A DNA stretch of 64,000 bases from Bacteroidales bacterium. Its GTDB lineage: Bacteria > Bacteroidota > Bacteroidia > Bacteroidales > F082. Made by a program: the position numbers and the translations under genes. Numbering within the stretch: the first letter of the stretch is position 1; every line of letters starts with the position of its first letter. The stretch lies in assembly GCA_017538795.1 (NCBI GenBank), contig JAFYIE010000079.1:1-64000 (forward strand). Direction: 5' to 3'. The notes beneath the pieces are model-generated. The model did not search any database. It saw nothing but the letters and a program-made list of their open reading frames with translations, and was not told the origin of the DNA. This document shows, one piece after another, positions 11,101-27,983 of the stretch.

Positions 11101-12800
11101 TAAGTAGAGTTGGTTGACATCACTTCAGTGCCTTTGGTCCAGTTCACGAAATGATATCCTGATGCTGTTGCAGCTGTTGCTGTCAAAGTTGCTGTTGCGC
11201 CGTGGTTGTAAGTGCCAGCGCCAGTGATACTGCCGCCGTTTGTCGGGCTGGCTGTTGCAGCTACCGCATAGCTGTTCAAAGTGAAGTTGGCAACGTATGT
11301 GCCGGCGTCTGTCACTGTGAAGGTGTAAGAAGCATTTGTTGAAACAACCTGACCGTTCTTTGTCCAGTTGTTGAAGGTGTAACCTGTGTTGGTTGTGGCT
11401 GTAAGAGTGCAGCTTGCGCCATGGTTAAATGTTCCAGCGCCTGTCACTGTACCGCCTGCTGCCGGGTTGGCTGAGGCTGTGATAGCGTAGCTGTTCAATG
11501 TGAAGTTAGCGACATATTCGCCAGCGCCTTCCACTGTGAATGTGTAAGAAGCGTTGGTTGAAACGACATTGCCGCCTTTTGTCCAATTCTGGAAGGTGTA
11601 GCCTGTGGCTTGTGTAGCGACCAATGTTGCTGTAGCACCGTGATTATAGGTGCCAGCGCCTGTCATTGTACCGCCTGTCTCAGGCGATGCCACTGTTGTG
11701 ATGTTGTATGTGTTCAAAGTGAAAGTAGCTGTGTAATCGCCAGCCTCTGTCACTGTGAAGCTGTATGAGGCGTCGGTTGAAACCACTGTGTTGCCTTTCT
11801 TCCAGTTGGTGAAGGTGTAGCCTGTTGTTGGTGTAGCTACCAATGTAGCTGTCTCGCCATGGTTGTAGGTGCCTGCTCCAGACACTGCACCGCCTACTGC
11901 CGGATTGGCAGTAGCGGTGATAGCGTAGCTGTTAAGTTGGAAATTAGCGACATATTCGCCGGCGCCTTCAACTGTGAAGCTGTAAGAAGCGTCGGTTGAA
12001 ACGATAACGCCGCCTTTTGTCCAGTTCTGGAAGGTGTAGCCTGTGGCTTGTGTAGCGACCAGTGTCGCTGTAGCGCCATGGTTGTAGGTGCCTGCGCCAG
12101 TCACTGTACCGCCTTGTGTAGGATTGGCTGCTGTTGTGATATCGTAGCTGTTAAGCTGGAAGTTTGCCGTGTAATCGCCTGCCTCTGTCACTGTAAAGCT
12201 GTAAGAAGCGTCGGTTGAGACGACTTCAGTGCCCCTTGTCCAGTTCTGGAAGGTATAGCCTGTTGTCGGAGTAGCTTCCAAGGTACAGGTTGAGCCATGG
12301 TTGTAAGTGCCTGCTCCTGTCACCACGCCACCTTCTGTTGGGTTAGCTGTGGCTGTAATATCATAAGGATAGAAGAAATGGATAGCGTAAGGGTTTTTAA
12401 GAGTTCCAAAGTTAGCATCGCTCTGGAAGGTGAAGCCGCTTATGCAAACGACAGCCATCTCTTCGCCTGTTTGATGGTTATAAACCTTGAAATTCATTGA
12501 TTCTCCTGATGTAGCGTTGCTATAAACCTGCATCCAGTAAACATATCCCTGATAACTTGAAGTATTGTTATAGTCCGGGAGATAGCTACCTCTACATTCA
12601 TCACCGTAGAAGACGCCTATTTCAAGATATTGTGCATCTGGATTGGTTCTCATTGAGACGCCATTCAAAAACATCTCTCCTGTTATGGTCATATTGTACT
12701 GCATGTGACTGTTGTAAGTCCAATGAGTACCCTGACTGGCATTAGCAATCATTGAAAATGCCATCAACACGATTAAAAATAACTTTTTCATTGTATTCAT
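8166..12800 (-). CDS. Giant InlB-type repeat surface protein with T9SS sorting domain
   Basis: A 1544-residue secreted protein. Residues 1-21 form a signal peptide (MKKLFLIVLMAFSMIANA after a three-residue leader). About residues 22-145 form a module with the motif YGDECRGSYLPD, also present in the two upstream proteins. Residues about 147-1460 are 18 tandem copies of a roughly 73-residue divergent InlB B-repeat (ITATANPTxGGTVTGAGTYNHG ... GYTFxNWTKxxxVVSTNASYxFTV ... YxANF). The last 80 residues carry IYPNPAIDKLIV and end in a type A T9SS sorting domain, so it should cross the outer membrane and be surface anchored or released. It is the last gene of a three-gene operon, 26 nt after its neighbour. 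Its role is probably adhesion; that is inference. Confidence 0.92.
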   Translation of the reverse strand: MNTMKKLFLIVLMAFSMIANASQGTHWTYNSHMQYNMTITGEMFLNGVSMRTNPDAQYLEIGVFYGDECRGSYLPDYNNTSSYQGYVYWMQVYSNATSGESMNFKVYNHQTGEEMAVVCISGFTFQSDANFGTLKNPYAIHFFYPYDITATANPTEGGVVTGAGTYNHGSTCTLEATPTTGYTFQNWTRGTEVVSTDASYSFTVTEAGDYTANFQLNSYDITTAANPTQGGTVTGAGTYNHGATATLVATQATGYTFQNWTKGGVIVSTDASYSFTVEGAGEYVANFQLNSYAITATANPAVGGAVSGAGTYNHGETATLVATPTTGYTFTNWKKGNTVVSTDASYSFTVTEAGDYTATFTLNTYNITTVASPETGGTMTGAGTYNHGATATLVATQATGYTFQNWTKGGNVVSTNASYTFTVEGAGEYVANFTLNSYAITASANPAAGGTVTGAGTFNHGASCTLTATTNTGYTFNNWTKNGQVVSTNASYTFTVTDAGTYVANFTLNSYAVAATASPTNGGSITGAGTYNHGATATLTATAATASGYHFVNWTKGTEVMSTNSTYSFTVTEAVNLVANFALNNYNVTVSANPTAGGTVTGGGTYNWGATAHLVATPATGYNFTNWTKNGQPVATTATYDLTVTEAGAYVANFAKNVYAISASADPTVGGTITGAGNYEHGATVTLVAIATTGYTFQNWTNGGQVVSTNASYSFTANAAGSYVAHFTLNSYAITTTANPTAGGTVTGANTYNHGATATLVATAATGYDFVNWTKGGQIVSTNASYSFTVTEAGDYTANFQLKSYNITATATPTAGGTVTGANTYNHGASCTLVATPNIGYTFVNWKKGNTVVSTNASYTFTVTEAASYTATFSLNSYAITTTANPTAGGTVTGAGTYNHFASCTLTATPATGYTFVNWTKNNVVVSTNASYTFTVTEAGAYTANFQLKSYNITATANPAAGGTVTGAGSYNHFSTCTLTATPATGYTFVNWKKGSTVVSTDASYSFTVTEAGAYTATFSLNSYEITVSAKPTFGGTVTGAGTYNHGSTATLTATPATGYTFTNWTKGNEVVSTNASYTFTVTEAGNYVANFTPNNYQITVFATPAEGGTVTGGDIYAYGHTCVLNAVPNEGYYFINWKKNDTEIVSTNPAYLFQVYENAAYVAHFALQAYEITATANPTNGGTIEGAGNYEAGMTATLTATPATGYTFVNWTDATGAVVSTNAAYSFTVTADAAFVANFELNSYAITAAANPAEGGTVTGAGTFNHGASATLTATANAGYTFINWTKGNEVVSTNASYTFTVTEAGAYIANFELNSYEITVVANPTEGGTVTGDGTYIHGATATLVATPATGYEFINWTKGNAIVSTNATYTFTVTEGGEYIANFAIQTFEVVLTADPADMGSVEGAGTYNYGETVTVKATPSADCFFVNWTENGVVVSEEPEFSFVVTADRNLVAHFDFDGVIENGSITYNIYPNPAIDKLIVESKDAITSIEIYNISGSLIYSRTDNSETVEIDVNSFSAGTYIIRLTSKDLMQTKRFIKK
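8415..12366 (-). repeat. Eighteen tandem ~219-bp coding repeats
   Basis: The coding repeats of the 1544-residue protein are similar at DNA level, with shared blocks such as the CACTGTGAAGGTGTA and CCTGTCACTGT segments recurring every 216-222 bp. Copies 9, 11 and 12 are closest to each other; the first and the last three differ more. Confidence 0.85.
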
Positions 12801-12826: not shown

Positions 12827-15800
12827 TTACTTAACAATCAGTTTATGACATTTAATAATCTTGCCGTCAGTGATGATTCTCACTGTGTAAACGCCAGTTT
12901 CTTCTGGAACCTGGATGTTTGCTGGCATCTGTGTTTTTTCAACTGATACCACCTGGCCGAGTGTGTTGAGGATCTCAACCTGAGCCATCATGTTATCTGA
13001 CACCTCAAGTCTCACGACTCCACCCTTTGAGGCAGGATTTGGATATATCGCGATGTCGTTGCTGAGTTCGCCGATACCTGTTGTACCTCTGAATCCGATA
13101 ACGAATGGTTCGCTCATGTTGCCAACCATAGCGTCGCCTGCGAAGGTGAGACTTGCGTTGCTATCGAATGTCTCCATACCTGTAGTAGCGTCGTAGAGAC
13201 CGAAGCTAAGTTCTGTCGCTTCTTTACCTGCCACTGTCAGGAAGGCGTAGTAACGATTATTTACACCTGCGTTGACGAGTTTCACGCTGCCGCGGCACTC
13301 ACCGTTGGCGAAGGCTGCGAGTTCGTAGTCACCGTCTGTGAGTTCTGTATCGTTGAGCTCAACAACTGCCACAACTGTCATGTTGTAAGGATATGCATGG
13401 TAGTTGGCCATCCAGTGCTCTGATGTTACGTTTTCCATCATCTCGCCTCTTACCACCGCCGGATATGTGAATGTCACATCTTCTTCGTTGTTCGACTTGT
13501 ACATCAGGCCTGCGCCTGGTGTGAGTGTGTTGAGTGAGCCACTCCATTCAGCGTATTCGGCATCGTATGTTGCGAAGCCTTCCTGAGCCTTCACCATGTC
13601 GCCGTCGGTAGGTTCGAAGCCTGCGAATGCCTCTTCAATGCTCATCGGCTGTGTTGAGATGAAGCCGAGGTATGTCCAACCGTTGTAGAGTGTGATCTCG
13701 TGGTTGGCAGGATCAGCGAAGTAGTTCTCCATATCAAATGTAACGTCGGCTGTCAAGTTAACCTTGAACATCTCTTCGTTGTTGAGAGCTGTGAGGTTGC
13801 CGCTCCACTCGTCGTATTCCTCATCGTAGGTCACGAAGCCGTTCGACTGTGAGACGATGCTCACGCCGTTGGTGCCGAGACCAGCCTCAAGGGTTGCGAG
13901 ACCCTCGAAGTTTTCTTGCTCGAGATATGTCGACCACCAGTTCCAGCCTTCAGCAAGGTCAACAGTCTGGAGGATTGTATTTCTGAAGTTGAACACATAT
14001 GGTTCAGCTGCTGTGCCAAGCACTGCGTCGGCTGCAAACACCTCTGTTGTGGCGCATCTCAAGGTGAGCTCTTCGCCATCAGCGTGGTTGTAGAGACGGA
14101 ATGTGAGTTCTTCGCCATCCTCGTTGCCGTACACTGTCATAAACAAGCGGTAAGCCTGAATCTGCTCGTAGAAGTCGAGACGTGCGCCGCCGCGGCACTC
14201 CTCGCCTACGAATGCGCCGACTTCAAGTTCGAGGTCGTTCTGTGTCTCACCCTCAATCTGGATGATTCCGATGAACGACATTGTGTTCTCGAATGCGAGA
14301 GGATTCTCAACATTGTAGTGGCTACCAGGTGTTCTGAAGTATGCCTCATAGTGACCATCAGTTTTTACTGTGAAGTAATAGTCATCTGCTCTTGAGACCA
14401 AGGTGTCGATGTTCATCCAGAACATGAATTCCTTACCTCCAACAGGCTGTGCATAAACATTTGCTTGTTCTCCGTACAGATAGGCTCTCTCTGGTGCATG
14501 ATACCAACTATTATTTTCCATCCACCAAACATTTGCTGAACCATATCCTTCCGGAGTCGCCGATGCTGAAATCGTGATAGGCACTATGTAATTCAAAGTG
14601 CAAGAAATACTTGCCGGGTTCATAATGACAAACTGACCACTTACTGTGCTGTAGTCGTCGCCGAAGCTGACTGATGCGTCGTAGGTACCTTTGTAGAATG
14701 TCTCCCACATGTAGTGACCTGTCTCATCGAGTGTCACCTCATAGACCTTTGAAGGATCGTTGACATTGGTGAAGACCACTTCAACACCTTCTGGGCTTGC
14801 GCCGTTGTTAAGTGTAACTGTGATTTCTACACCATTTTCAATCTCCATATCAACATCGAGAGGATTCGACCAGACGATTTCCGACATATTGTCACCACTG
14901 ATTGGAGCGCCGTCAGTCTCGTATGTAAACGTTGTCTTTGGAATGAAGTTTTGTTGCGTTGCCGGAATATTTGCAGGATTTGAAGAATTATTTTTACCAA
15001 TACTTGCTCCATTCGCAGTCTTACCATAGTAATTTATGCCATTCCATTGTCCTGTAGTAATATTTTCAGAACCGACAAGCAGATTACCACCATTATATTC
15101 GAAAGGCGTGTCTAAAGTAATCACCGCCGTTCCATCTGTATTATATGTGACATATCCTGTGTAAACCACAGTGCAATTATCAACAGATTCGTATGCTGAA
15201 ATAGTGGTGTAATCAACTTCTTTCATATAGTATTTCACCTGAACATTTGTTGTCCATGGCAAAGGATGTTGGAAATTATTACTACCACCATTAGTCTCAT
15301 CGAAATAATACGTAAGTTCGGTAATTGTACCGCCTGCCATCACACTTATTTCCTCAGCAGGGATGACATGCTGTGAACGGGTATATTCATCATAATACAA
15401 AGCATATGCCGGCACATTATAATTAGTGTTTGCATCTTCTTCATAAATAGTATGCGTCTCGACATCGCGGTTGCCGCGGTCTGTTGGTGCGTTTCCTGCA
15501 TACACTGCGGCGACACCGTATTTGTATGAGCCGACTTCAAGGTTTGCCCATGTTTCATCGGTGTATGTCAACTCAGTTACGCCTTCTGCAACGAGTTCTG
15601 TATTGTCAGTTGTGTAAGGACCGTCGTTGTAGGCGCTTGTACGATACACGTTGAAGCCCTGGAGTGAGCGGTCAGTGTTCTGATACTGCCATGTGATGAC
15701 AGCGTCTGAATCTTCTTCAACAGCCACAACATCTGACACAGGATAGTATTCCTCAGTGAGCCAGAACTCAACACCGTTCCAGTTATTGTATGTAATTGTC

Positions 15801-18800
15801 AAATCGTGTGAAACCGGCTGGTATCCTTCCTTAGTCGCTGTAAGCGTATATTCACCGACCTTAACCTCATTTGTGAAGTAACCTGTTTCATCGCTTGTAA
15901 ATTCATACATTACAGGATTATCGAACTCGTCGGCACCATCCATAACAATTGTAGCGCCTTCGATAGCCACAATACCATCTTGTTCAAATATATAGCCCCA
16001 AACATAGCCATTTCCTGAAACATACACTGTCTGACGATCAGAGAACTCTGAATCACCATATTTGTAAACTGTTCTTACTGCGAAGTCATAGCCATCCATG
16101 TTGTAATACAACAAATCATCGACTGCGACTTGGTATTCTGTAGTGGTTATCACATCACCGATCTGGTTATACCAGCCCCAGTAGCCCCAGTCTCCATAGT
16201 CGTAATATTTGCCATAGAACAACTTGTATCCGAGGGCGTCTTCAGGTGCATCCCATGTGAATGTCAATGTGTCTGAGTTGCCATAGAATGCCTGGGTATT
16301 GTCAACCAGGAAGTTCTCCGCTCCTTCGCGAATTGTTTGGAAGTAATAGATACTGCCGTATGTTGTGCCTGCAGCATTACGTCCGTTAAGCTGGATATAG
16401 TATTTCTTGTTGTACTCAACGTTTTGCAGCTGTACTGTCTCAACCGGTGCTGTCCAGTTGATGAGTGTATCTGTCGGAGGGTTGGTGACACCGATGAGGA
16501 TCTGCATCTCTTCAGTAAACCATCCGAGGTTGTATGTCACTTCCGCATCGAGAGGCACATTTTGATAATATGCCGGATAATTGATATATGACTGATAAGG
16601 AGCATCAACCATAGAGGTATGCATGCTCACTTCCATGAAGTCGGTATCGTCGGTTGAGACAGCCACATAGTATGTACCTGCAGGGAGGTAAGCGTTTTCG
16701 ATAACATTTGATGGCATGCGGAAACCTGTCACTTTAACGTCATCAACAATAGCGCCATGGCCGAAATGGTCGTCCATCACGAAACCAAGCTGGAACTCAG
16801 AGCCCATATAGTAATTATAATAGTCAAGGTTAATAACAACCTCTGTCATCGTCTCATGAGCTTCTGTTGTGTACATCAAATATTGCCAGTCGCCTTCATC
16901 ATTACGGAAATAAACTCCGAAGTAGTCAATATCGTTGTCCCACTGTTTGTTCATGTAGTTCAATGTAATGCGCACGTTGGTTTCGTTGCTCAAGTCAATT
17001 TTTGGAGTAACAAGGTATGTGTAGCCTTGCCAGCTCTGACCGGCATTAATGTTGTGCTCGCATTTCATGTAGTGGTTCTCGGTATCGAGTACCCACTCGT
17101 TCATACCCCACTCTGCGTATTGGCTCCAGCCTTCCGGCATCTCATCGCCGTCGAAACTTTCGTTAAGGAAGTCGTTGTTGTCGCGGTTGCCGCGGATGTC
17201 GGTGTAGGTTGGTCCGTTGTATGTGTATGTGTTGTAGTTCGACGGTCCACCCACTTCATCGAAGTCTTCCTGATAGATGTATGCCGAAGCGTTGTTGGCT
17301 GTTGTTGCCACTGTAAGTTTTCTTTCTTCCGGCAGGACGACTTTATAAATAGCGTCAATGCCATTATTTACCGGAAGGTTGTAGCTGGCATGGAGGCCAT
17401 CAACAGGCATCTGGTTCTCGTAAGTGTCGTTTTCAAACTCAACCTCGATAGCTGTCTCCCATACATCGCCTGTAATTGGAGTGTAGCCTTCGGCTGTCAA
17501 TGTGACTTCGAGAGGCTCGCTTCCGTCAACAGTAACGGTTATTGTCGCCTCGACTGCGCCTTCTGCTGTACCGACAGCTTTCACCGGGAAGTTAAGCGAC
17601 TTGTTGTATTTCAATGTGTAAGGAAATTCGATGCCTTCCAAGTCAATCTCAAAGTATGGGTTATCGACCTCAATGCCTGTGATTGTAGCGGATTTGCCAG
17701 CGTTGGCGAGATTCACATTATATGTGTAGTCGTTCTCGCTCCACACGCCATTAGCGCGAATGCCAAAGTCGATTGAAGCAGGAGCTATAGTAAGATCCGG
17801 CTCTTCAGGAACGATAATTCCGTATTCGATTTTTGTCTTAGGGAAGAAATAGGCAGTATAGTTATTTGAACCGTCAGTGTATTTTCCGTGCACAGCCATG
17901 TAATCATTGACACCATAGAAAAATACATCATTCCATGTTCCTATTTCATTGTTGTCGATACCAATCAGCAAATTGCCACCATTATATTGATAAGGTTTGG
18001 TGAAGTTGATTTTCACCTCGCCATTAGCATCAAATGACATATAGCCTGTGCTTACGACAGTGGCATCTCCTTTATCGACAAAATAGTCCATGTAATCGTA
18101 AGGATATTCCGCCAGATACACATCAACAGTCACATCAGTTGTCCATGGATATGTAGGGTTTCCGATAATATTACTATTAGAACTTACTAAGGTATCATTA
18201 TAGTAATATGTGAGGCTTGAAATTCCAGCGCCTTGAATATCTGTCAGATAACTTTCAGGGATGACGTACTGTGATCTTGACAACATGTCAAAATAATAGA
18301 CGAATGCCGGGACACCGCCTCTTTGTTGATCTTCTTCGTCAAAGATTGTAATGTCGTCGTTCTCCACTAAAAGAGCGTTGAAGTTTGCCACGTAAGCGGC
18401 GTTGTCTTCAACCACGACATTGAAGCTAAGGTCGGTTGAGACCTCTTCTCCTCCCTTTGTCCAGTTAACGAACTCGTAACCGAAATTAGGTGTCACTGAA
18501 AGTGTCACATTCGTTCCGTATTCGTATGTGCCTGTTCCTGTAATCACGCCAGCTCCTGTCAGGTTTGTTGAAGCTGAGATAGCGTACTCGTTGATTGAGA
18601 AGTTGGCGATATAGAAACCGGTGCCTTCCACTGTGAACTCGTATGTAAGTTCGGTTGAGACCTCTTCGTCATAATCGTTTGTCCAATTCACGAAGTGATA
18701 TTCGCTTTCAGGATTCAATGTAGCCGTGAGTGTGCAGGTCTCGCCATAATCGTATGTGCCAGATCCTTCAACAGTACCAGCTGCATTAGGGTTAGCGTAA

Positions 18801-19630
18801 ACGTAGATGTCAAACTGGTCAATCTGGAAGTTCGCATTGATAACAGTGTCTTGCGTCACATTGAAATTGAGTGTCGACCATGTGCCGAGCACCACTTCAT
18901 CTTCACCGTCCATTGTGGTCCAGTTGACGAATGTGTAGTGATCGTTGGCCGAAGCCTGAAGTGTGCAAGGACGACCGACGAGGAACTCACCAGCGCCTGT
19001 CACTGTACCACCCTCTTCAGGGTTTGCCACAGCTGTCACTGTGTAAGCCTCAGTCTCTTCATGATATGTGAAGGTTGTCTTTGGCAAGAAGTTGGCTGAA
19101 TAAACAGTTGAGCTGGTTGTTCTGTAAATAGAAGCGCCTCTCTTGTCAACTCCATAAAAAGCTGCACTTTCATAGCTTGAGTAGGTTGAATAAACACGGA
19201 AACCGATGAGAAGATGACCTCCATCATAGTCGTATGGTTTATCGAAAATAACCTCCATCTCATCCTGTGTGTTGTCAAGAACACCAGTGTAAACAACATC
19301 ATATTCATCGTAGCTCTGCATCGATGTTATTGTCTCACTGCTATATGGTTTCATATAAACCTTATACACAGCACTACTTGCATTGGTTGCAGGGCTTGAC
19401 AGATAGAATGTCAATCCATCGATGGTCTTGCCGGCCATTGCGCTAATATCATAGTCCGGAATAACAAACTGGCTCTGTTGATACGTATTGTATGAATAAT
19501 AGCTATAAATTGGTATAGCATAGTTTGTTATCGTTCCGTCATTCACTGTAAGTGTTTGCGGAGTATTCTGAGCTTTTGCCGATAACACCGTCATAAGCAA
19601 AAGCATAAATAATAATTTAATCTTACTCAT
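12827..19630 (-). CDS. Giant modular T9SS surface adhesin (about 2267 aa)
   Basis: I start at the ATG encoding MSKIKLLFMLLLMTVLSAKA, a clean signal peptide; an in-frame ATG nine codons earlier exists. Positions counted from that upstream ATG: a 160-residue module ending in PKTTFTY at about 35-195, repeated at about 435-610 and 1400-1570; three InlB-type repeats (205-425); an Ig-like region (620-720); a cleaved-adhesin (gingipain/HagA-type) domain (FDGDEMPEGW ... VDDVKV, 830-980); fibronectin-like regions; a carboxypeptidase-regulatory-like domain (1215-1290); an ECRG module (near 1820 and 2120); a GWNWWS module (1905-2080); and a T9SS sorting domain (IYPNPAS, 2195-2276). It is the second gene of the operon, 11 nt after the first. 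Probably a surface adhesin. Confidence 0.92.
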   Translation of the reverse strand: MSKIKLLFMLLLMTVLSAKAQNTPQTLTVNDGTITNYAIPIYSYYSYNTYQQSQFVIPDYDISAMAGKTIDGLTFYLSSPATNASSAVYKVYMKPYSSETITSMQSYDEYDVVYTGVLDNTQDEMEVIFDKPYDYDGGHLLIGFRVYSTYSSYESAAFYGVDKRGASIYRTTSSTVYSANFLPKTTFTYHEETEAYTVTAVANPEEGGTVTGAGEFLVGRPCTLQASANDHYTFVNWTTMDGEDEVVLGTWSTLNFNVTQDTVINANFQIDQFDIYVYANPNAAGTVEGSGTYDYGETCTLTATLNPESEYHFVNWTNDYDEEVSTELTYEFTVEGTGFYIANFSINEYAISASTNLTGAGVITGTGTYEYGTNVTLSVTPNFGYEFVNWTKGGEEVSTDLSFNVVVEDNAAYVANFNALLVENDDITIFDEEDQQRGGVPAFVYYFDMLSRSQYVIPESYLTDIQGAGISSLTYYYNDTLVSSNSNIIGNPTYPWTTDVTVDVYLAEYPYDYMDYFVDKGDATVVSTGYMSFDANGEVKINFTKPYQYNGGNLLIGIDNNEIGTWNDVFFYGVNDYMAVHGKYTDGSNNYTAYFFPKTKIEYGIIVPEEPDLTIAPASIDFGIRANGVWSENDYTYNVNLANAGKSATITGIEVDNPYFEIDLEGIEFPYTLKYNKSLNFPVKAVGTAEGAVEATITVTVDGSEPLEVTLTAEGYTPITGDVWETAIEVEFENDTYENQMPVDGLHASYNLPVNNGIDAIYKVVLPEERKLTVATTANNASAYIYQEDFDEVGGPSNYNTYTYNGPTYTDIRGNRDNNDFLNESFDGDEMPEGWSQYAEWGMNEWVLDTENHYMKCEHNINAGQSWQGYTYLVTPKIDLSNETNVRITLNYMNKQWDNDIDYFGVYFRNDEGDWQYLMYTTEAHETMTEVVINLDYYNYYMGSEFQLGFVMDDHFGHGAIVDDVKVTGFRMPSNVIENAYLPAGTYYVAVSTDDTDFMEVSMHTSMVDAPYQSYINYPAYYQNVPLDAEVTYNLGWFTEEMQILIGVTNPPTDTLINWTAPVETVQLQNVEYNKKYYIQLNGRNAAGTTYGSIYYFQTIREGAENFLVDNTQAFYGNSDTLTFTWDAPEDALGYKLFYGKYYDYGDWGYWGWYNQIGDVITTTEYQVAVDDLLYYNMDGYDFAVRTVYKYGDSEFSDRQTVYVSGNGYVWGYIFEQDGIVAIEGATIVMDGADEFDNPVMYEFTSDETGYFTNEVKVGEYTLTATKEGYQPVSHDLTITYNNWNGVEFWLTEEYYPVSDVVAVEEDSDAVITWQYQNTDRSLQGFNVYRTSAYNDGPYTTDNTELVAEGVTELTYTDETWANLEVGSYKYGVAAVYAGNAPTDRGNRDVETHTIYEEDANTNYNVPAYALYYDEYTRSQHVIPAEEISVMAGGTITELTYYFDETNGGSNNFQHPLPWTTNVQVKYYMKEVDYTTISAYESVDNCTVVYTGYVTYNTDGTAVITLDTPFEYNGGNLLVGSENITTGQWNGINYYGKTANGASIGKNNSSNPANIPATQQNFIPKTTFTYETDGAPISGDNMSEIVWSNPLDVDMEIENGVEITVTLNNGASPEGVEVVFTNVNDPSKVYEVTLDETGHYMWETFYKGTYDASVSFGDDYSTVSGQFVIMNPASISCTLNYIVPITISASATPEGYGSANVWWMENNSWYHAPERAYLYGEQANVYAQPVGGKEFMFWMNIDTLVSRADDYYFTVKTDGHYEAYFRTPGSHYNVENPLAFENTMSFIGIIQIEGETQNDLELEVGAFVGEECRGGARLDFYEQIQAYRLFMTVYGNEDGEELTFRLYNHADGEELTLRCATTEVFAADAVLGTAAEPYVFNFRNTILQTVDLAEGWNWWSTYLEQENFEGLATLEAGLGTNGVSIVSQSNGFVTYDEEYDEWSGNLTALNNEEMFKVNLTADVTFDMENYFADPANHEITLYNGWTYLGFISTQPMSIEEAFAGFEPTDGDMVKAQEGFATYDAEYAEWSGSLNTLTPGAGLMYKSNNEEDVTFTYPAVVRGEMMENVTSEHWMANYHAYPYNMTVVAVVELNDTELTDGDYELAAFANGECRGSVKLVNAGVNNRYYAFLTVAGKEATELSFGLYDATTGMETFDSNASLTFAGDAMVGNMSEPFVIGFRGTTGIGELSNDIAIYPNPASKGGVVRLEVSDNMMAQVEILNTLGQVVSVEKTQMPANIQVPEETGVYTVRIITDGKIIKCHKLIVK

Positions 19631-19668
19631 TGTCTTATATTTTTTAATTATTTTCAAAAAACAAACAC

Positions 19669-22600
19669 TTATTCAACAACCACTTTGCGTAAATGAGTGT
19701 TATTGTTGTCTGTCATGATTCTGAGCATATATACACCTGGCATGCTTGGAGCCTGGATGCTTGCCTCTGAACCTGAAATAGTCTCAACAGAAACAACCTC
19801 GCCGATTGTGTTGACAACTTCGACTTGCACTGATTCTGTTTCTTCTGCCAAAACGATGCGGATTTCACCGTCTTTAGCAACCGGGTTAGGATAAATTCTC
19901 ATGCTGCCGCTGTGCTCGCCGACACCTGTTGTGCCTCTGAAGCTCACCACGAATGGGTTGTCGATGTCGCCAACCATTGCGTTGTTGCTGAAGCTGAGAG
20001 TTTCGTTGCTGTCGTAAATCTCTTCTTCTGTAGTAGCGTTGTACAATGCGAAGCTGAGCTCAGCCGCGTTGTCGCCTGCCACTGTGAGGAATGCCATGTA
20101 ACGGCCCATCACAGGGATGAGTTTCACGCTGCCGCGGCACTCGCCGTTGGCAAATGCTGCAAGCTCGTAGTCGCCTTCAACTTCCATGTCGTTGAGCTCA
20201 ACAACTGCCACAACTGTCATGTTGTTCTGGTATGCGTTGTAGTTTGCCATCCAGTGGTCTGAACCGACGTTAGCCTTAAGTTCACCCTTGTCAGCAACAC
20301 CGTAAACGAATGTCACATCGTTCTCGTTGTTCGACTTGTACATGTAACCCATGCCTGGTTCAAACACGTTGAGTGAACCTACCCAGCCGCCTTCAGCGTC
20401 GTATGTAGCGAAGCCGTACTGCGACTTGATCATATCGCCTGCTGTAGCTTCAAGACCGACAAATGCGTTGTTCAAGTTCATGGCGTTATTTGTCGGGAAG
20501 CCAATCCATGTCCAGCCGTTGCTGAGTGTGATCGGATGATCGTTAAGTGCAGCGACTGTTCCGAACATAGCTACATTGGCATCGCCCGCCATCTTGATCT
20601 TGTACATCGACTCATTGTTGAGAGCTGTGAGTGAACCGCTCCATTCGCCACTCTCCTCGTCGTATGTAACGAAGCCATTCTGCGACTTGATCATCTCGCC
20701 GTTTTCACCGAGACCTGCCTCAAGGATGCCAAGACCTGCGTAATTGGCTTGCTCAATGAACGGTGACCACCAGTTCCAGCCTTCAGCCAATGCTGCTGTC
20801 TGCTCATCAATAGCTGCTGTCTCAACACAACTCATAGTGTTGCCAGTATAAACGACACGTACTCCATATTCATGACCGTCAAAAACGCCATTGTCGACAT
20901 ATGATGCCTCATCAACGAAGTCGTAAATCTCACCGTCACGATAAACTACAGCGCCTTCTGGAGTAATTGTCTCATTATAATAGACGCGAATCATCATATT
21001 ATAATTTGAATTGGACGTAAACAAATTCCAATTCACACCGTCAAATGAATAATAGTTATTACCATTATTTGTACTTTGGCACACTGTAGCTTGCCAGTTC
21101 GAACCCGAAATCTTTTTATAAACAACCCAAAGATTTTGTGTGTTGTCTATTTCAAGTGGCTCATCAAACACATAATTAGCGAACTGATATGCATTGGGCA
21201 TAGTTTGCTCATCTGAAGTATGAATCAGATTTTCAGGAGCATTTTCACCACCATTATAGATATATATTTGAACAATATTTGTAGTATAGTTATAATAGTA
21301 GTTGAATTCTGCTACCTTTGTAATATAATTGCTGTTTATCGTACCTGCAGGGAATTTAACTGCCCAATATGCATAATTATATGCGGTAGAATAAGAACCA
21401 TTATCATAAGCCACTTCTTCTTCAAACTCGATTTCTTCCGGATACTCCCAACTCATGGTGTTGCCTTCAGATGTTGAAGTTAAGCTCAAATCGCTTACAC
21501 CTTCAAAGTTGCTGCATGGCCTATATTTGAATGTTGTATTCTCAGAACTTGACCATCCTGTTGTGTAAATAGAATACAGGAGACAAGTGTACTTCCTGCC
21601 CTCAATCAAGCCCAACTCTTCAACTGGCAACTGAATGAAATCATTTGTTGTATAAAAATAACCATAGGCAACATTCTCAGTATTGTCAATGATTTGCAGA
21701 GCGTATTCTTGGAATGCACGGTCATCATTTACTGGAACCCATGTTGCAAATCCTGTAGGTGAAACATTGAAAACATAATCATTATACAAAGTTTCATTCA
21801 TTTCGCATTCAATTTCGACAGGTTCTGTAATATTTGTGTACATCACATAGTCATCATAATCTTCTCTTGTAATTGTCATTTTATAATAACCTTTACGGAA
21901 GTTAGTGTATTCAACGTATCCGTAGTATGTTGTGATGTCGTTTACTTCGTCATATTCTTCAACAATCATGTCTTCGGTGAGTGTCACATCAGCGATAGGA
22001 TAATGCTCCTGTTCGAATTCGTTCTGGTTGATGAAATTAATAGTTGCTCCAACCGGGCTTACATCAGGATTATTGAGCCATACTTTGATATTCACGCCTT
22101 CAGCTACAAACATATCCTTGCCGATTGGGTCCGACCAAACGATGTCCGATTCATTTCCTTCGTGGATGCTTGGGCTGCGGAGCTCAACATCATCAACATC
22201 AAGATAGAAACCGTTGCTGTTGTAGTTATAGTGACGGATCGCGACATAACCTTCCTCTCCTGCATAATCGCCAAGGTTTACTGTAAATTGAGCCCAGTCG
22301 CCCTGCGCTTTGCTCGGATGTGCCGTCATCGTCCAACCGTTCACGTAATAGAAATAACCCACATAATCATTTGATGATGTTGAAACATAAACTGCAAAAT
22401 ACTCTGTAGGATAGTTGGCATCCTGTGCGCAAGCCCAGAATGAGAATTCCGAAGCGTCTGTGAATTTCACCTTTGGAGTGATAAGCCATGCGTCATGATT
22501 TACTGGTGAACCGTTACTATAGCTCTTTGAAATCATCATGTCTTTTGAACCGTTGTGGCCTTTGTAGTAGCCGAGGCCTGCCTCGCTTCCGAGCATCCAG

Positions 22601-25155
22601 TTGTATCCATAACTGTATGGGTCCATCTTTGTCCATCCCTCCGGGAAACCTTCGTCGAAGCCTTCCGAGAGTGTGGTTGGCACTGTCTCGCCTTCGCGGT
22701 TACCTTCGTAAACCACGCTCACACCATATTTATATAATCCTGATTCAGCGTCAGCCCATGTCTCATCAAGAACCGATGTCTCTGTTGGTGTCGCGACGAC
22801 ATCGGTGTTATCTAATGTGTAAGGACCGTTGTTGCTGTTAAGTGTACGATACACACGGTAGTTCTGAACCTCACGTGCATGTGGTGTCCAGCTTACCAAC
22901 ACGTTGTCGCCATCCTCAACTGCAGTTACAGCCTCAACCGGGAAGTATGTCTCGGTCAAAACGAAGTTTTGATCAATAAAGCTCCAGTTGTAACCTACCC
23001 ATCCTATAAATATATTTTGAGGCTGATATTCCTCAACATCTATTGAAACATTGATACCATAACCGCACTTGAATGTGCCTTCATATTTACCGTCTTCGTC
23101 GGTCGTGAATGTGTAATCAACTTCATTATCAAACTCATCATAACCGACCAATGTAACGTTTATATTATTAATAGGTGTAGTGCCGTCCTGTTCGAACACA
23201 TAACCTTCGATGGTGGCATAGCCTGAAACACGCACTACTATTTCTTCAGCCGCCGATTCGCCTGCCTCATAAACCGTAGTCACACCGAATGTGTAGCCGC
23301 CCATGTTGTAAGCCAGACCCGTAACACTCATCGTGTTGGTTGTAATAAGCTCTTCGTTTTGCTTGACGCCGTCCTTGTAGAAGTTGTATCCGAGGAACGT
23401 GCCGCGTACTGCATCCCATGTAAACACTGCTGTGTCGCCTACAAAAATTTCTTCACTTTCAACAGCGAAATTTTCGACAGGATCGATAAACGTTGTGAAA
23501 GGATAAACGTTACTTGCCGTTGTTCCAGTATTGTTTCTTGTCTTAACCTGTGCGAAATACACTGTATTGTGGAGCAAGCCCTCAAGTGTCACATCGGTAT
23601 AATCGAATGTCAGGTCGTCTGTCCAGTCAACAAGAACTGTTTGTGGTGGATATTGTGTTCCAACCAGCACCTGCATTTCCTTACTGTAATTTCCGAGATA
23701 GATTTTCATCTGGTCTCCATTGTCAACGCCCGACTTGCCTTGCCATGAGTTATAATTCATATCATAAATAAAAGACATATTAGGCGCAGGGACAGATTCA
23801 ATCCTGAGATGAATGACTCTGCCAGCATTGTCATTGTTTTTGGCTACAATGTAATATGTTCCAGGCGTCACCAACCAAGACATATTACCCCAACGATAAT
23901 ACAAACAGTTAGTAATCTGTGGAGCATCAAGACCACCCATATCTTCATTATACAAAGCGGTCAATCGTTGCCAGTCGTTACCTTCATCATTAAAATACAA
24001 AACACTTTCCGATTCAACAGTAAACTTGACAACCACATCATTCATTGCTGAATAATACATGCTTTCCGGAATGTCATAATTGTTGTGATATGGGCAAGGC
24101 TCACCAGTGTAATCAGTGCCGAGATACCAATCATAGGTGTAATTATTATTGATTGGCAATGTACCAAGATCATATGGATTTTCCCAAACATCGCCTTCAA
24201 CAGGTTCGTAGACTGTCGCCGTAACATCAACAGTTGTTGTATAGCTACCAAACTCATCTTCATATGCCACGGTTATCACACCTGCTATATCACCAACAGT
24301 TGCTGTTGTTCCTGTTGAAACTTCAACTTGAGTTGTTTCATAAGCATCCAGCGTGAATGGAACTTCCTTGTTGATAGCAAAGAAATCGTTGTCGCATGTA
24401 ATGCTTGTAACCGTACCTTCACTACCTGTGTTTTGCAATGTGAAAGTCTTCTGTCTTGCCCAAGCTCCATTAGGACACTCACCCATTTCAACCTCATCGG
24501 TTAAAGCAGCGATATTGGCCGGAATGTCCATGTTAAGTTTCATGTAATTCTTGTATGCAAAACTACCACCAGTGCCACCATGACCATCTCCAGTTGGATT
24601 TGTCACGTCAAAATTGTAATCGTCTCTATACTGTCTTATTGCACGATACTGACCGTTTGGATCAGGATAAGTGTACATCTTCATTGCCATGCTGCTGGAA
24701 TTGCAATAATATGTTGAATTATCAGTAATACAAATCAACAAATTATCGGTGCCATTATACATAAACGGAGTATCCAATGTCAATGTAACATTTCCGGCAT
24801 TGAAATAAACATTTCCGGTAAACACAAGATCATTCGTCGGATCCATTATCACATAATCGGTCGTAGTGGTGAAATAGTTTTTTGTGGTATGTGCCATATA
24901 GACCTTAACTGATCTGTAACGGCTGTCACCATTGTATGATACCGAGTAAGTGATTGAATTAATCTGACCGGGAGTACCAATTTCAGCAGGAGTGTAAATC
25001 TGTTGTGAAATTGTTTTCATGTAATAAGTGTAAGTCGGGATAGTGTTGTATGCAGTCCCTGCATAACCGACTACCACATCTTGACTTGCTTTCATCGTAC
25101 CCGCAAAGGCAAACAAAAGCACCAACAGAGAAAGCAATTTCCCTGTCTTAAGCAT
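19669..25155 (-). CDS. Giant modular T9SS surface adhesin (about 1828 aa), operon leader
   Basis: I place the start at 25155, giving MLKTGKLLSLLVLLFAFAGTMKA, a signal peptide; an in-frame ATG at 25209 would add 18 polar residues ahead of it. Positions counted from 25209: the 160-residue module at 45-215, an Ig-like or choice-of-anchor region (235-360), fibronectin-like regions, a carboxypeptidase-regulatory-like domain (665-735), a cleaved-adhesin domain (FDEGFPEGWTK ... DVDDVEL, 850-1010), a further beta sandwich, a GWNWWS module (1480-1640), an ECRG module (near 1695) and a T9SS sorting domain (MRIYPNPVAKDGEIRI, 1765-1846). It is the promoter-proximal gene, directly downstream of a two-component system. 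Confidence 0.9.
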   Translation of the reverse strand: MLKTGKLLSLLVLLFAFAGTMKASQDVVVGYAGTAYNTIPTYTYYMKTISQQIYTPAEIGTPGQINSITYSVSYNGDSRYRSVKVYMAHTTKNYFTTTTDYVIMDPTNDLVFTGNVYFNAGNVTLTLDTPFMYNGTDNLLICITDNSTYYCNSSSMAMKMYTYPDPNGQYRAIRQYRDDYNFDVTNPTGDGHGGTGGSFAYKNYMKLNMDIPANIAALTDEVEMGECPNGAWARQKTFTLQNTGSEGTVTSITCDNDFFAINKEVPFTLDAYETTQVEVSTGTTATVGDIAGVITVAYEDEFGSYTTTVDVTATVYEPVEGDVWENPYDLGTLPINNNYTYDWYLGTDYTGEPCPYHNNYDIPESMYYSAMNDVVVKFTVESESVLYFNDEGNDWQRLTALYNEDMGGLDAPQITNCLYYRWGNMSWLVTPGTYYIVAKNNDNAGRVIHLRIESVPAPNMSFIYDMNYNSWQGKSGVDNGDQMKIYLGNYSKEMQVLVGTQYPPQTVLVDWTDDLTFDYTDVTLEGLLHNTVYFAQVKTRNNTGTTASNVYPFTTFIDPVENFAVESEEIFVGDTAVFTWDAVRGTFLGYNFYKDGVKQNEELITTNTMSVTGLAYNMGGYTFGVTTVYEAGESAAEEIVVRVSGYATIEGYVFEQDGTTPINNINVTLVGYDEFDNEVDYTFTTDEDGKYEGTFKCGYGINVSIDVEEYQPQNIFIGWVGYNWSFIDQNFVLTETYFPVEAVTAVEDGDNVLVSWTPHAREVQNYRVYRTLNSNNGPYTLDNTDVVATPTETSVLDETWADAESGLYKYGVSVVYEGNREGETVPTTLSEGFDEGFPEGWTKMDPYSYGYNWMLGSEAGLGYYKGHNGSKDMMISKSYSNGSPVNHDAWLITPKVKFTDASEFSFWACAQDANYPTEYFAVYVSTSSNDYVGYFYYVNGWTMTAHPSKAQGDWAQFTVNLGDYAGEEGYVAIRHYNYNSNGFYLDVDDVELRSPSIHEGNESDIVWSDPIGKDMFVAEGVNIKVWLNNPDVSPVGATINFINQNEFEQEHYPIADVTLTEDMIVEEYDEVNDITTYYGYVEYTNFRKGYYKMTITREDYDDYVMYTNITEPVEIECEMNETLYNDYVFNVSPTGFATWVPVNDDRAFQEYALQIIDNTENVAYGYFYTTNDFIQLPVEELGLIEGRKYTCLLYSIYTTGWSSSENTTFKYRPCSNFEGVSDLSLTSTSEGNTMSWEYPEEIEFEEEVAYDNGSYSTAYNYAYWAVKFPAGTINSNYITKVAEFNYYYNYTTNIVQIYIYNGGENAPENLIHTSDEQTMPNAYQFANYVFDEPLEIDNTQNLWVVYKKISGSNWQATVCQSTNNGNNYYSFDGVNWNLFTSNSNYNMMIRVYYNETITPEGAVVYRDGEIYDFVDEASYVDNGVFDGHEYGVRVVYTGNTMSCVETAAIDEQTAALAEGWNWWSPFIEQANYAGLGILEAGLGENGEMIKSQNGFVTYDEESGEWSGSLTALNNESMYKIKMAGDANVAMFGTVAALNDHPITLSNGWTWIGFPTNNAMNLNNAFVGLEATAGDMIKSQYGFATYDAEGGWVGSLNVFEPGMGYMYKSNNENDVTFVYGVADKGELKANVGSDHWMANYNAYQNNMTVVAVVELNDMEVEGDYELAAFANGECRGSVKLIPVMGRYMAFLTVAGDNAAELSFALYNATTEEEIYDSNETLSFSNNAMVGDIDNPFVVSFRGTTGVGEHSGSMRIYPNPVAKDGEIRIVLAEETESVQVEVVNTIGEVVSVETISGSEASIQAPSMPGVYMLRIMTDNNNTHLRKVVVE

Positions 25156-25185
25156 TAGCCCCCTTAGGGTATAATGCCCTCTTTG

Positions 25186-25303
25186 TTTTTGTAAAGTACA
25201 GTAAATCATAATAAATAATTATTAAGTTAATAAATGTATGAATTTTATAATGAATCACTTTGAATGATATCTTCCTGTCATTCAATATTCTACTTTACAA
25301 AAA
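25186..25303. repeat. 13-bp perfect inverted repeat bounding the adhesin operon leader
   Basis: TTTTTGTAAAGTA at 25186-25198 and its exact complement TACTTTACAAAAA at 25291-25303 enclose 92 bp. The right copy overlaps the TTTTTG of the -7 box and the left copy lies near the alternative start codon. Confidence 0.6.
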
Positions 25304-25305
25304 TA
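25298..25305 (-). promoter_or_regulatory. -7 promoter element of the adhesin operon
   Basis: TATTTTTG on the minus strand, a perfect TAnnTTTG. There is no TTTG -33 box; the palindrome at 25328-25343 occupies its position. Confidence 0.75.
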
Positions 25306-25327
25306 TAGGAAATTTTCTGGACAATTG

Positions 25328-25343
25328 TAAGTAATATTACTTA
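25328..25343. promoter_or_regulatory. Candidate operator: perfect 16-bp palindrome
   Basis: TAAGTAATATTACTTA, two TAAGTAA half-sites in inverted orientation with a 2-nt centre. Its near edge is 22 nt from the -7 box. The same half-sites, spacer length and distance occur upstream of the histidine kinase gene at 27933-27948. Probably the binding site of the NarL-type regulator encoded alongside. Confidence 0.7.
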
Positions 25344-25367
25344 ACAGCCCGAAAAAATTATCAACAT

Positions 25368-25988
25368 TTATTTAACCAATCCGGCATCGTAGGCATATTT
25401 TACCAAATCCGCCGTGGTATTGATGTCGAGTTTTTCAAAAATATGGCTTTTGTGCACTTCCACAGTGCGGCGGCTTATGCCAAGACGGTCGGCAATCTGT
25501 TGGGCCGACATGCCGTTGGCGCATAGTTGGATAATTTCTATTTCGCGTCTCGAAAGGTCTGATTTTACGCTTATGCGGTATTGTTTGCCCTCGTCGTAAT
25601 TATTTATGCCAAACAGGGCGTTGAGCTTGGCTTTCATGGCTTCAGGATCCTCGTTCTTATCCCAAAAATCATCCACAAGGCCTTGAGTTCGCCTTACCAC
25701 TTCAGGGTTTTTGCTATCGCCTGAAAGCAGAACAATTTTGGCTTTGGGACTTAAAGTTTGCGCATAATGTATCACATCAACACCGTCTCCGTCGGGCAGG
25801 AAGTAGTCGAGTAAGATAATGTCCACCTCGTCACCGTGTTGCTCCAGAAACTGCTTGGTCGACCTCACGTCTTCAGTCTCCCCGACAATAACGCCGCTCA
25901 AGCTCGAATAGTTGAGCGACAATCGAAGACCCATGCGATAAATCGGATGGTCTTCAACCAAAAGTATTCTTATTGGCTGTCGTCCCAT
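25368..25988 (-). CDS. NarL/LuxR-family response regulator
   Basis: A 206-residue transcription factor. The amino-terminal receiver domain (1-125) has the acidic pair in LLVEDHP (12-13), the phospho-acceptor D61 in ILLDYFLPDGDG, the Ser/Thr switch in LLSGDS and the conserved Lys in DFWDKNEDPE. The carboxyl-terminal LuxR-type helix-turn-helix (about 140-200) includes LSRREIEIIQLCANGMS and ISRRTVEVHKSHIFEKL. It lies 4 nt after the histidine kinase gene and ends 25 nt before the candidate operator of the adhesin operon, so it is the obvious regulator for both. NarL-type proteins commonly bind inverted 7-mers as dimers, which fits the palindrome. Confidence 0.93.
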   Translation of the reverse strand: MGRQPIRILLVEDHPIYRMGLRLSLNYSSLSGVIVGETEDVRSTKQFLEQHGDEVDIILLDYFLPDGDGVDVIHYAQTLSPKAKIVLLSGDSKNPEVVRRTQGLVDDFWDKNEDPEAMKAKLNALFGINNYDEGKQYRISVKSDLSRREIEIIQLCANGMSAQQIADRLGISRRTVEVHKSHIFEKLDINTTADLVKYAYDAGLVK

Positions 25989-25992
25989 AATT

Positions 25993-27804
25993 TCACACTT
26001 TCTTTACACTCATAGTTACTGTAGTTCCTTTGCCCTCTTCGCTTTCTATCACTATAATTCCGCCATTGCGCTCCATCATTTGCTGGCTCACGAAAAGGCC
26101 GATGCCAGTGCCCAACTCGCCACCTGTTCCTTCAGTCGACGAGGTCATCCTATTCATCAACTTGCCTAACTTTTCCTTGCCGATGCCTTGACCATGGTCT
26201 ATCACTTTAAGCAGATAACGTTCACCATCGTCTTCGGCTTCCAACCTTATTTCACCACTGGCAAATGAATATTTCACAGCGTTAGAGAGAATGTTTTGCA
26301 ACACCATCTCAACAATTTGCGGGTCGTCGTTGCCAATCCAATCTTTCGGAACGGCATTCGCAACTTTCAGCTGCTTCTGCCCTATTTCAAAGGCTTGACT
26401 GCGTATCACCTTGTCGGCCGTCTCGCTTAAGTTGAACCGTTCGGTTTGGCTTTCGGTTTTGCCAATCATTCCCTTAACCCAACTTATAACGTTGATTATC
26501 TTTGCCTTGAGTTCCTTTGTCGACGATTTCAGTGTAACCAGATACTTTTTCAGATATTCAACCGGCACCTCGTCGATATGCTCACATATGAGGTCGAGAC
26601 TTTTCTCCTGCGCCTGTACCGGCGTCTTAACGTCGTGCGATACAACACTAAACAACTGGTCTTTAGTTTTGTTAAGGCGGGTCAGCATCTCATTACGCTT
26701 CTTACGTTGGATGGCATTTCGTGCCAGTAAAACAACCAGAATCAGCAACAACACCACCACTAACAGCGACAAAGAGAGTTGCCTGCGGCTTTGTCGGGTT
26801 TTTTCCTCCTGCAGCTGCAATTGATGCTCTTTCTCGGCCATCTGATACTTCACCTGATAGTCGCGAATCAAAGTCTGCATATCTTCATTGTAGATAGAGT
26901 CCCTCATCTTAACGTTTTCCTCAAGATATCCGATAGCGCGTTCCGGATGCGAGGCTCTTGTGGCAAGATATGCTCCTTGCTGGCTATCCAGATAAAACTG
27001 TTTGAACTGATTTTCTTTTGCGATGCGTATTGCCATAAGATAGTACATCTCAGCGGAATCGTAATTGCCACTTTCGTAAGCATACTGGCCATAAAGCATA
27101 ATAACGCATGTCTCGTAATAGAGTTCTTTTTCACGACGCGCTATTTCGAGTGCGGCCTCGAGCTCAGCATCCGACTCGTTTTGCCGTCCCGCCTCATGAT
27201 AGGCCTTCGACAAGGCTATACGCCTATTGATGATTTTTTCATTATTGTCACCATATTGTTGCGACAACGCCAAGGCTTTCTCAGCAAAGCTGATAGCCTC
27301 GTCAGGGTCATGTTGCATCAGCCGCACTCCCGAAAGATTCTGGTAATATGTCGCGAGGTCAAGATTAGCCTTCGCATCATCGCCAGGATCTCCCAACATT
27401 TCGATACATTTCCAGTACAACTCCTCCGACTGGTCATATTCCTCCATATCATAATAAATCGCGGCGATGTTATTCATGATATATCGTTTGTTGACTGCCG
27501 CCATATCGCCCCCGATTTCATCCATAATCTCGGTGCAGATATTGTAGTTGCGTATGGCATCGTCATATTGCCCTATGCGCATGTAGGCTCCCGCGATGGT
27601 GTTGTAACATCCTGCCACGTTGTATTTGTCACCTGCTTGTTCATAAAGCTCCAGTGCCTGCTCGGTGTAGTCAATCACCTCAACAAACCTGCTTTCGTCG
27701 AAACACTGCAATATCTTAGTCCTAAGGCTGTCAACCTCATGCGCCTTCACACCAAGTGAAAGACAAAAAATAACTATTGCAACGACTATCTTTTTATACA
27801 ACAT
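25993..27804 (-). CDS. TPR-sensor histidine kinase
   Basis: A 603-residue membrane sensor kinase. A signal peptide (1-21, ending GVKA) is followed by a periplasmic tetratricopeptide region (about 25-330, with repeats such as AGCYNTIAGAYMRIGQYDDAI), one transmembrane helix (about 345-364, LSLLVVVLLLILVVLLA), a HisKA dimerisation domain with the phospho-acceptor His in FSVVSHDVKTPVQ (about 388) and a HATPase domain (480-603) with the N box QNILSNAVKYS and G boxes DHGQGIGKEKL and GTGIGLFVSQQM. It probably autophosphorylates and signals to the regulator 4 nt downstream. The start codon lies 4 nt after an eight-G tract. The signal sensed is unknown. Confidence 0.93.
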   Translation of the reverse strand: MLYKKIVVAIVIFCLSLGVKAHEVDSLRTKILQCFDESRFVEVIDYTEQALELYEQAGDKYNVAGCYNTIAGAYMRIGQYDDAIRNYNICTEIMDEIGGDMAAVNKRYIMNNIAAIYYDMEEYDQSEELYWKCIEMLGDPGDDAKANLDLATYYQNLSGVRLMQHDPDEAISFAEKALALSQQYGDNNEKIINRRIALSKAYHEAGRQNESDAELEAALEIARREKELYYETCVIMLYGQYAYESGNYDSAEMYYLMAIRIAKENQFKQFYLDSQQGAYLATRASHPERAIGYLEENVKMRDSIYNEDMQTLIRDYQVKYQMAEKEHQLQLQEEKTRQSRRQLSLSLLVVVLLLILVVLLARNAIQRKKRNEMLTRLNKTKDQLFSVVSHDVKTPVQAQEKSLDLICEHIDEVPVEYLKKYLVTLKSSTKELKAKIINVISWVKGMIGKTESQTERFNLSETADKVIRSQAFEIGQKQLKVANAVPKDWIGNDDPQIVEMVLQNILSNAVKYSFASGEIRLEAEDDGERYLLKVIDHGQGIGKEKLGKLMNRMTSSTEGTGGELGTGIGLFVSQQMMERNGGIIVIESEEGKGTTVTMSVKKV

Positions 27805-27808
27805 TTTA

Positions 27809-27816
27809 CCCCCCCC
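27809..27816 (-). repeat. G8 homopolymer tract at the histidine kinase start
   Basis: Eight consecutive G on the minus strand, ending 4 nt before the kinase ATG and starting inside an upstream ATG. It is a typical slipped-strand mutation site. With eight G the upstream ATG opens a short out-of-frame reading frame, with nine it is in frame with the kinase and with seven it stops just before the kinase start. Confidence 0.75.
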
Positions 27817-27902
27817 ATAATATAACTAACTGATAGTCAATTGATTGCAATTTATTTATTATAAATTTGCAGCTTCTCATATATAATTATATAATAGTCA
27901 CG

Positions 27903-27910
27903 CAAATTTA
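27903..27910 (-). promoter_or_regulatory. -7 promoter element of the two-component operon
   Basis: TAAATTTG on the minus strand, a perfect TAnnTTTG, about 100 nt upstream of the kinase start. As at the adhesin operon, the palindrome takes the place of the -33 box. Confidence 0.72.
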
Positions 27911-27932
27911 ATAATATTTATAAAAGCAATTA

Positions 27933-27948
27933 TAAGTAAAATTACTTA
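27933..27948. promoter_or_regulatory. Candidate operator: second copy of the palindrome
   Basis: TAAGTAA-AA-TTACTTA, with the same half-sites as 25328-25343 and the same 22-nt distance to the -7 box. This suggests autoregulation of the two-component pair. Confidence 0.68.
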
Positions 27949-27954
27949 TTAAAT

Positions 27955-27983
27955 AAAAAAAAAGAAGGCACCGCCTTCTTTTT
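27955..27983. terminator. Terminator after yebC
   Basis: Stem GAAGGC / GCCTTC with an ACC loop extended by A and T tracts on both sides, so it can work in either direction. It isolates yebC from the two-component operon. Confidence 0.8.

Follow-up and report, generated by a model that had tools for sequence, protein, structure and literature searches.

The 64,000-nt window analysed here (contig JAFYIE010000079.1 of a Bacteroidales bacterium, positions 1 to 64,000) carries on its minus strand the genes of a sensor kinase, a NarL/FixJ-type response regulator and three large predicted adhesins. Two palindromes with the same arms, each placed 22 nt before the -7 box of a promoter, lie upstream of the kinase-regulator operon and of the adhesin operon. 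Very probably these parts make up an autoregulated two-component switch, in which the regulator, to judge from the sequence, would activate both its own operon and the adjacent adhesin operon from a position near -42.5. The sites, their scarcity, their spacing, their co-inheritance with the regulator, the difference between regulator subfamilies and, where scanned, the type of gene downstream are all direct observations. The window alone is little proof of such a switch; the comparison of genomes carries the case.

Operator 1 (27933..27948; TAAGTAAAATTACTTA, reading TAAGTAATTTTACTTA on the minus strand) lies upstream of the kinase-regulator operon, and operator 2 (25328..25343, minus strand; TAAGTAATATTACTTA) upstream of the adhesin operon, both at the coordinates that an initial annotation of the window had given. 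That annotation called the two 7-2-7 palindromes identical, which is true of their 7-bp arms and not of the central 2 bp. Its claim of an equal distance to the -7 box was borne out: on the minus strand, each palindrome is followed by 22 nt and then by a perfect TAnnTTTG, namely TAAATTTG (27903..27910) in the kinase promoter and TATTTTTG (25298..25305) in the adhesin promoter. The spacers in between, described as unrelated, have AATTG in common at positions 2-6, so that description is only partly right. No third exact copy had been noticed, and there is none in the window or in the 2,477,713-bp genome assembly (122 contigs, 93.5% complete), in which a whole-assembly scan for the exact pattern TAAGTAANNTTACTTA (TAAGTAA-NN-TTACTTA) returned these two places only. 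Degenerate sites carried no signal in this genome: allowing up to two mismatches gave 8 places, fewer than the 22 of a reversed control pattern, so only exact copies stand out. A wider regulon in the same genome was also considered and rejected, as a scan allowing up to three mismatches to the composite site added no more than two 3-mismatch sites to the exact pair.

We compared 99 genomes of the genus, the window's own included. A full-length ortholog of the regulator was found in nine of them (again counting our own), and a contig-edge fragment in a tenth (G010; G, L and C numbers are our own handles). Orthologs are 72-83% identical to the window regulator, and the next-best regulators reach at most 48%. 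The exact palindrome was present in 11 of the 99 genomes: all ten with an ortholog, one of these being the fragment in G010, and one of the 89 without (G103). Fisher's test gives a p of 7e-13 for this co-occurrence, or 3e-11 counting full-length regulators only, both being nominal values for related genomes that are not independent. Across the ten ortholog genomes, all 22 exact copies have a box of at least 5/6 at 22 nt, and 20 of the 22 match 6/6; the copy in G103 has no such box at 22 nt on either strand.

Exact copies are not scattered in large numbers, with two in the window's own genome and one in the 89 genus genomes that lack the regulator. Nor was the palindrome lost in relatives: a site lies upstream of the kinase gene in all nine genomes with a full-length ortholog (seven exact, two with one mismatch, in G021 and G112). 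Past the regulator and ahead of the next large gene, an exact copy also stands in eight of these nine, as well as in G010 and on contig L174, which hold regulator fragments. The exception is G112, where the next gene starts ~28 nt past the regulator, as if co-transcribed with it, and where the exact copy fronts a 2937+ aa gene elsewhere. We also noted that in G002 (C16; L052 6178-8030) the orthologous kinase gene is in pieces in the assembly, with both operators intact; the break may be a sequencing error. Two outcomes that the initial annotation had named as refuting its proposal, many scattered copies and loss of the palindrome in close relatives, were thus looked for and did not occur. The scarcity of the site and its retention in relatives support the dedicated, autoregulated switch for the adhesin locus that the initial annotation had proposed, with binding and activation being predictions from the sequence.

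The spacing of 22 nt also stood out in a scan that assumed no operator. Any 7-2-7 inverted repeat plus box was scored (maximum 13) at spacings of 8-55, up to 250 nt downstream of the regulator, in 57 of 80 fetched regulator loci (L179, L180, L183 and L185-L204 were excluded as partial, distant or non-Bacteroidales). At spacing 22, 18 of the 57 loci scored at least 12 of 13, while the 47 other spacings averaged 0.55 loci and never exceeded 5. The ortholog group supplies eight of the 18, largely from genomes already in the genus count, of which the locus scans are not independent (L125-L132 match genomes G130, G119, G002, G132, G112, G021, G007 and G031). When regulators at least 80% identical were collapsed, 7 of 30 remained at spacing 22 and at most 2 at any other, against a mean of 0.03 in 60 shuffles. 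Small excesses at spacings of 10, 15 and 20 (4, 5 and 4 loci scoring at least 12) were also seen; after near-duplicates were collapsed, there were two loci each at 10, 15 and 43 and one at 20, versus 7 at 22. Upstream of the kinase, the 22-nt spacing was found in 7 of 46 loci, all of the ortholog group (mean 0.30 and maximum 3 at other spacings).

Palindromes with a score of at least 11 (23 loci) group by the recognition helix of the regulator. Regulators with VHKSH or AHKSH have TAAGTAA-NN-TTACTTA at eight of nine loci, and those with THKER have TCCGTAT-TA-ATACGGA at all five; NHKD goes with TAGGAAA- or TGGGTAA-type sites, NMKS with AGGAG-N4-CTCCT, and SHKNK with TAGGTAA..TTACTTA. One genome, CAMUYT, has three such systems with three palindromes (L131, L164, L165). 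The THKER palindrome is present in 7 of the 99 genus genomes, beside the regulator in all five with that helix and unlinked in two, helices having been read for the fetched loci only. This match between helix and operator supports the pairing of regulators with palindromes, but not an account of which residue reads which base; that assignment is left unproven because helix and operator both follow ancestry.

Some further sites resemble these. The NHKDN regulators (L145, L152) have the near-palindrome CAGGAAATTTCTCCTA 23 nt, not 22, before TATTTTTG. Lipoprotein genes at L105, L078 and L108 (site ~1501) have TAGGTAA-type palindromes 22 nt ahead of their -7 box; the L105 gene, the only one scanned, is a DUF6935 gene. 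In genome G338 (L122) a similar-looking lipoprotein lies behind a TACGTAA site. Possibly the lipoprotein sites form a second regulon of the same geometry.

Regulator and kinase form a conserved cassette with the operator, behind which the adhesin has for the most part been replaced. Pairwise identities are 69-92% among eight orthologous regulators and 69-95% among eight kinases, the G002 kinase, broken in the assembly, being excluded. Nine adjacent adhesins gave 36 pairs, 7 of them without a BLAST match. The clearly related pairs are G132/G021 (87% over 1873 aa) and L174/G010 (53-60% over ~1170 aa); the remaining pairs have 28-61% identity over 54-729 aa, and as three of the nine adhesins end at contig ends some similarity may be missed. 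Besides the kinases, 16 site-bearing genes were counted in the ortholog group; beyond the regulator locus there are two in G031, one each in G021, G002, G119 and G112, and none in the window's own genome. All six that were domain-scanned (own, G130, G132, one of G021, L174 and G119 C81) are of adhesin type, with type IX secretion system (T9SS) tails, BspA-type leucine-rich repeats, Cleaved_Adhesin, choice-of-anchor J or InlB-B repeats. For most of the other ten, the observation is limited to a large reading frame that opens with a hydrophobic stretch. In G130, the scanned 984-aa gene is separated from the site by a 91-aa frame. A promoter and signal-peptide start similar to MKRTLQHRKGVFALLLALSLGMGTAYA is common to several adhesins (L060, L061, L132, L128 and L130; genomes G031, G132 and G021), which suggests duplication of the promoter plus signal peptide before changing bodies.

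In the window, the order on the minus strand is a YebC-family gene, a hairpin, operator 1 with its promoter, the kinase, the regulator, operator 2 with its promoter and the three large genes. The hairpin (27959..27983, minus strand; terminator scan, RNA fold -12.4 kcal/mol) is terminator-like, has a T run, lies 3' of the YebC-family gene and would insulate the kinase promoter from that upstream gene. The sensor kinase (25993..27804, minus strand, 603 aa; Pfam TPR_12 and HATPase_c) consists of an N-terminal hydrophobic stretch, TPR repeats, a second hydrophobic stretch near residue 345, an H-box SHDVKTP and the HATPase, where the H-box and the hydrophobic stretches were identified by inspection of the sequence. 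FimS of Porphyromonas (NF053520) is its best NCBIfam model at 231.6 bits, with the next model at 89.6, but the score stays below the equivalog cut-off of 600. A NarL-type regulator had been placed between the two sites by the initial annotation; this regulator (25368..25988, minus strand, 206 aa, recognition helix SRRTVEVHKSHIFEKL) is encoded there, together with the TPR kinase. Its Response_reg (2.7e-15) and GerE (5.4e-19) domains, both above the Pfam cut-off, place it in the NarL/FixJ class. Residue D61, which from the NarL/FixJ family pattern we take to be the phospho-acceptor, is invariant among 18 aligned regulators (the window's, 8 orthologs and 9 paralogs), and the solved structures closest by sequence are VraR and then NarL.

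The three predicted adhesin genes follow on the same strand, and in domain scans all of them had a Por_Secre_tail C-terminal sorting domain (T9SS tail) above the Pfam cut-off. Gene 1 (19669..25209, 1846 aa as listed) has a choice-of-anchor J domain, and its real start is likely near 25155, ahead of the signal peptide. Gene 2 (12827..19657, 2276 aa) begins 11 nt past gene 1 and combines InlB-B-type repeats with a carboxypeptidase-regulatory-like domain. Gene 3 (8166..12800, 1544 aa), 26 nt past gene 2, has 18 InlB-B-type repeat stretches.

The position of the operators was estimated from the sigma-A box of Flavobacterium, which the available part of PMC9723704 places at -12 to -5. With the -7 box set there, the palindrome would span ~-50 to -35; the distance from its centre to the start of the box is 30 nt at all 22 exact sites, which corresponds to a centre at ~-42.5, as would suit a class II activator. 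The initial annotation had the palindrome replace the -33 box, which is only partly right. The palindrome would instead abut the -33 region, and the start of the spacer, which falls there, is indeed not TTTG. Over the 25 ortholog-group sites, spacer bases 1-10 tend toward a majority YARYYRTTTC; this set required a box of at least 5/6 at 22 nt, by which none of the 22 exact palindromes in ortholog genomes was lost. Because the -33 region holds YARYYRTTTC and not TTTG, the promoters look activator-dependent and would be weak without an activator.

We envisage that the periplasmic TPR domain of the kinase senses an extracytoplasmic cue, upon which the kinase would phosphorylate the NarL-type regulator. 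A regulator dimer would then bind the 7-2-7 palindrome at ~-42.5, adjoining the -33 region, and recruit or activate housekeeping-sigma polymerase at the TAnnTTTG promoter in a class II-like manner. Activation of its own operon would provide positive feedback, and the adjacent operon of giant T9SS-exported adhesins would be activated likewise; some related regulators of the genus have other palindromes at the same spacing. In this scheme we infer the binding, the phosphorylation, the sign of regulation and the signal.

Beyond the genus, an exact scan for TANGTAANNTTACNTA-N22-TANNTTTG in 393 genomes of the order found our own genome and two others (G448, G338), and the reversed control found none. 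In G448, of another family, two sites stand before genes of large proteins that look secreted (3678+ and 3434+ aa); on a different contig a FimS-like kinase and a NarL-type regulator have TAGGTAAAATTACCTA 30 nt past the regulator, with only a 5/6 box at 23 nt. In G338, of a third family, the regulator stands beside a FimS-like kinase with palindromes 47 and 71 nt upstream of the regulator start, and the promoter at the 22-nt spacing is directed at the divergent neighbour instead of the regulator; this genome has five exact TACGTAA sites. G338 also has three tandem TTCGTAA/TACGTAA pairs 24 bp apart (L227 6149/6173 and 7551/7575; L228 9461/9485). Each pair has one copy 22 nt before a TAnnTTTG box, suggesting a double-operator variant of the design described here. 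FimS-like kinases were detected in 119 of the 393 order genomes at E 1e-60, and in none of the 393, our own included, was the FimS equivalog cut-off (600 bits) exceeded.

Several results weigh against the proposed switch or narrow its reach. No site scoring at least 11 at spacing 22 was found in 34 of the 57 regulator loci, and the yield was 4 of 10 loci for NHKD, 4 of 11 for NMKS (with 3 more weaker) and 2 of 4 for SHKNK. The box behind the THKER palindrome is GATTTTTG, a 5/6 match. The SHKNK site (L136 10698, L144 10681) fronts a ClpB/ClpC-like ATPase gene, not an adhesin gene, as domain scans of L136 indicate. Among the 46 loci, the paralog groups yielded no operator ahead of the kinase, so autoregulation seems confined to the ortholog group. 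A general rule for Bacteroidales TPR kinases was rejected: 20 FimS-like loci across the order, read with 1.5-kb flanks only, showed no excess at 22, the single hit there being G338. Finally, a site at -42.5 could also repress.

Autoregulatory sites are often negative, and the palindrome abuts the -33 region, where an unphosphorylated regulator might block the promoter until phosphorylation relieves it. We regard such a repressing or dual role as unlikely, though as the most serious competitor to activation: the expected -33 TTTG reads YARYYRTTTC, which makes the promoters look activator-dependent, and FimR, of the closest studied system, is an activator in the available part of PMC1974823. It is quite improbable that the palindrome belongs to an unlinked regulator for which the kinase-regulator pair is merely one target. 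Related TAGGTAA palindromes do front lipoprotein genes as well (DUF6935 in the one scanned), but from genome to genome the exact site goes with the adjacent regulator, and paralogous regulators adjoin palindromes of their own, as with the three of CAMUYT.

The two copies flank the kinase-regulator pair and might thus be recombination sites bounding an invertible or exchangeable segment; a review, available to us in part, describes invertible promoters as common in gut Bacteroidales (PMC12632263). There is very little chance of this, as gene order and orientation relative to both promoters are the same in orthologs with both copies, and single copies (G112 C27, G119 C81, G002 C10, G031 C22 and C39) also lie 22 nt from a -7 box. 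That the palindromes are RNA hairpins or terminators, or arose by chance, is the least credible of these explanations. Their RNA folds reach -8.3 and -4.8 kcal/mol (z ~-2.9), but the stems are AT-rich and lack a T run, a separate terminator-like hairpin stands at 27959..27983, and if the promoter uses this box the palindrome is upstream of the start, outside that transcript. Fold and terminator scans led us to reject a hairpin or terminator role, and the co-occurrence and spacing counts to reject chance. Activation by the adjacent regulator is therefore the reading that we favour.

The source habitat is probably the ruminant gut, as the named relatives, which are uncultured Bacteroidales or Bacteroidia, were in most cases sampled from the rumen or elsewhere in the gut of ruminants. 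A broader proposal, for and against which we see the case as evenly balanced, is that ruminant-gut Bacteroidales harbour a multiplying family of adhesin cassettes, each with a TPR kinase and a NarL-type regulator whose private palindrome lies 22 nt ahead of the -7 box. After duplication, the regulators would have changed recognition helix and operator jointly, giving several insulated switches per genome, and the adhesin would be freely replaced. If the proposal is true, a residue-to-base recognition code for NarL-type regulators might be derived from this natural series; the paralogs and their differing palindromes already provide a set for studying how such helices read DNA. With so strict a spacing, an operator readable from sequence would help to predict which adhesins are controlled by such pairs in uncultured gut bacteria, and the locus is a case of a switch held constant while its surface-protein cargo is largely replaced.

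Among known systems, PorX/PorY-SigP and HaeS/HaeR of Porphyromonas gingivalis are likewise Bacteroidales two-component systems touching T9SS or surface functions; in the available parts of the sources on them, we found no TPR sensor dedicated to an adjacent adhesin operon and no shared operator. For a Bacteroidales pair of TPR kinase and LuxR-type regulator, no operator was found in the open-licence literature, judged by titles and the starts of abstracts. The closest known system is FimS/FimR, in which FimR is of the LuxR type. From the available portions of two papers, FimR of P. gingivalis binds and activates mfa1 directly and reportedly binds the first fimA-cluster gene at its promoter (PMC1974823), and FimS has a periplasmic TPR domain (PMC11053733). 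Those portions held no FimR operator motif (PMC1974823, PMC11053733), so operator and spacing are not comparable. Like FimS/FimR, the window system joins a TPR sensor kinase and a response regulator at a surface-adhesin locus, and FimS is the best model for its kinase. The gene arrangement and domains of such a switch are present, and control of the adhesins is predicted from the operators only. Unlike FimS, the kinase, at 231.6 versus 600 bits, is a homologue and not an equivalog, and the targets would be T9SS/BspA-like adhesins, not fimbrillins. With NarL and NarP of Escherichia coli the system has in common the regulator family and the layout of the sites, inverted 7-2-7 heptamers with a 2-bp centre; it differs in the heptamer TAAGTAA, in the sigma factor and -7 box, and in the one fixed position seen at 22 exact sites. 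E. coli class II activators such as CRP sit at -41.5, with their centre ~30 nt upstream of the first -10 base. Here, too, the operator centre precedes the start of the -7 element by ~30 nt, at promoters that differ from theirs in their Bacteroidota sigma and box and in a partly conserved spacer element.

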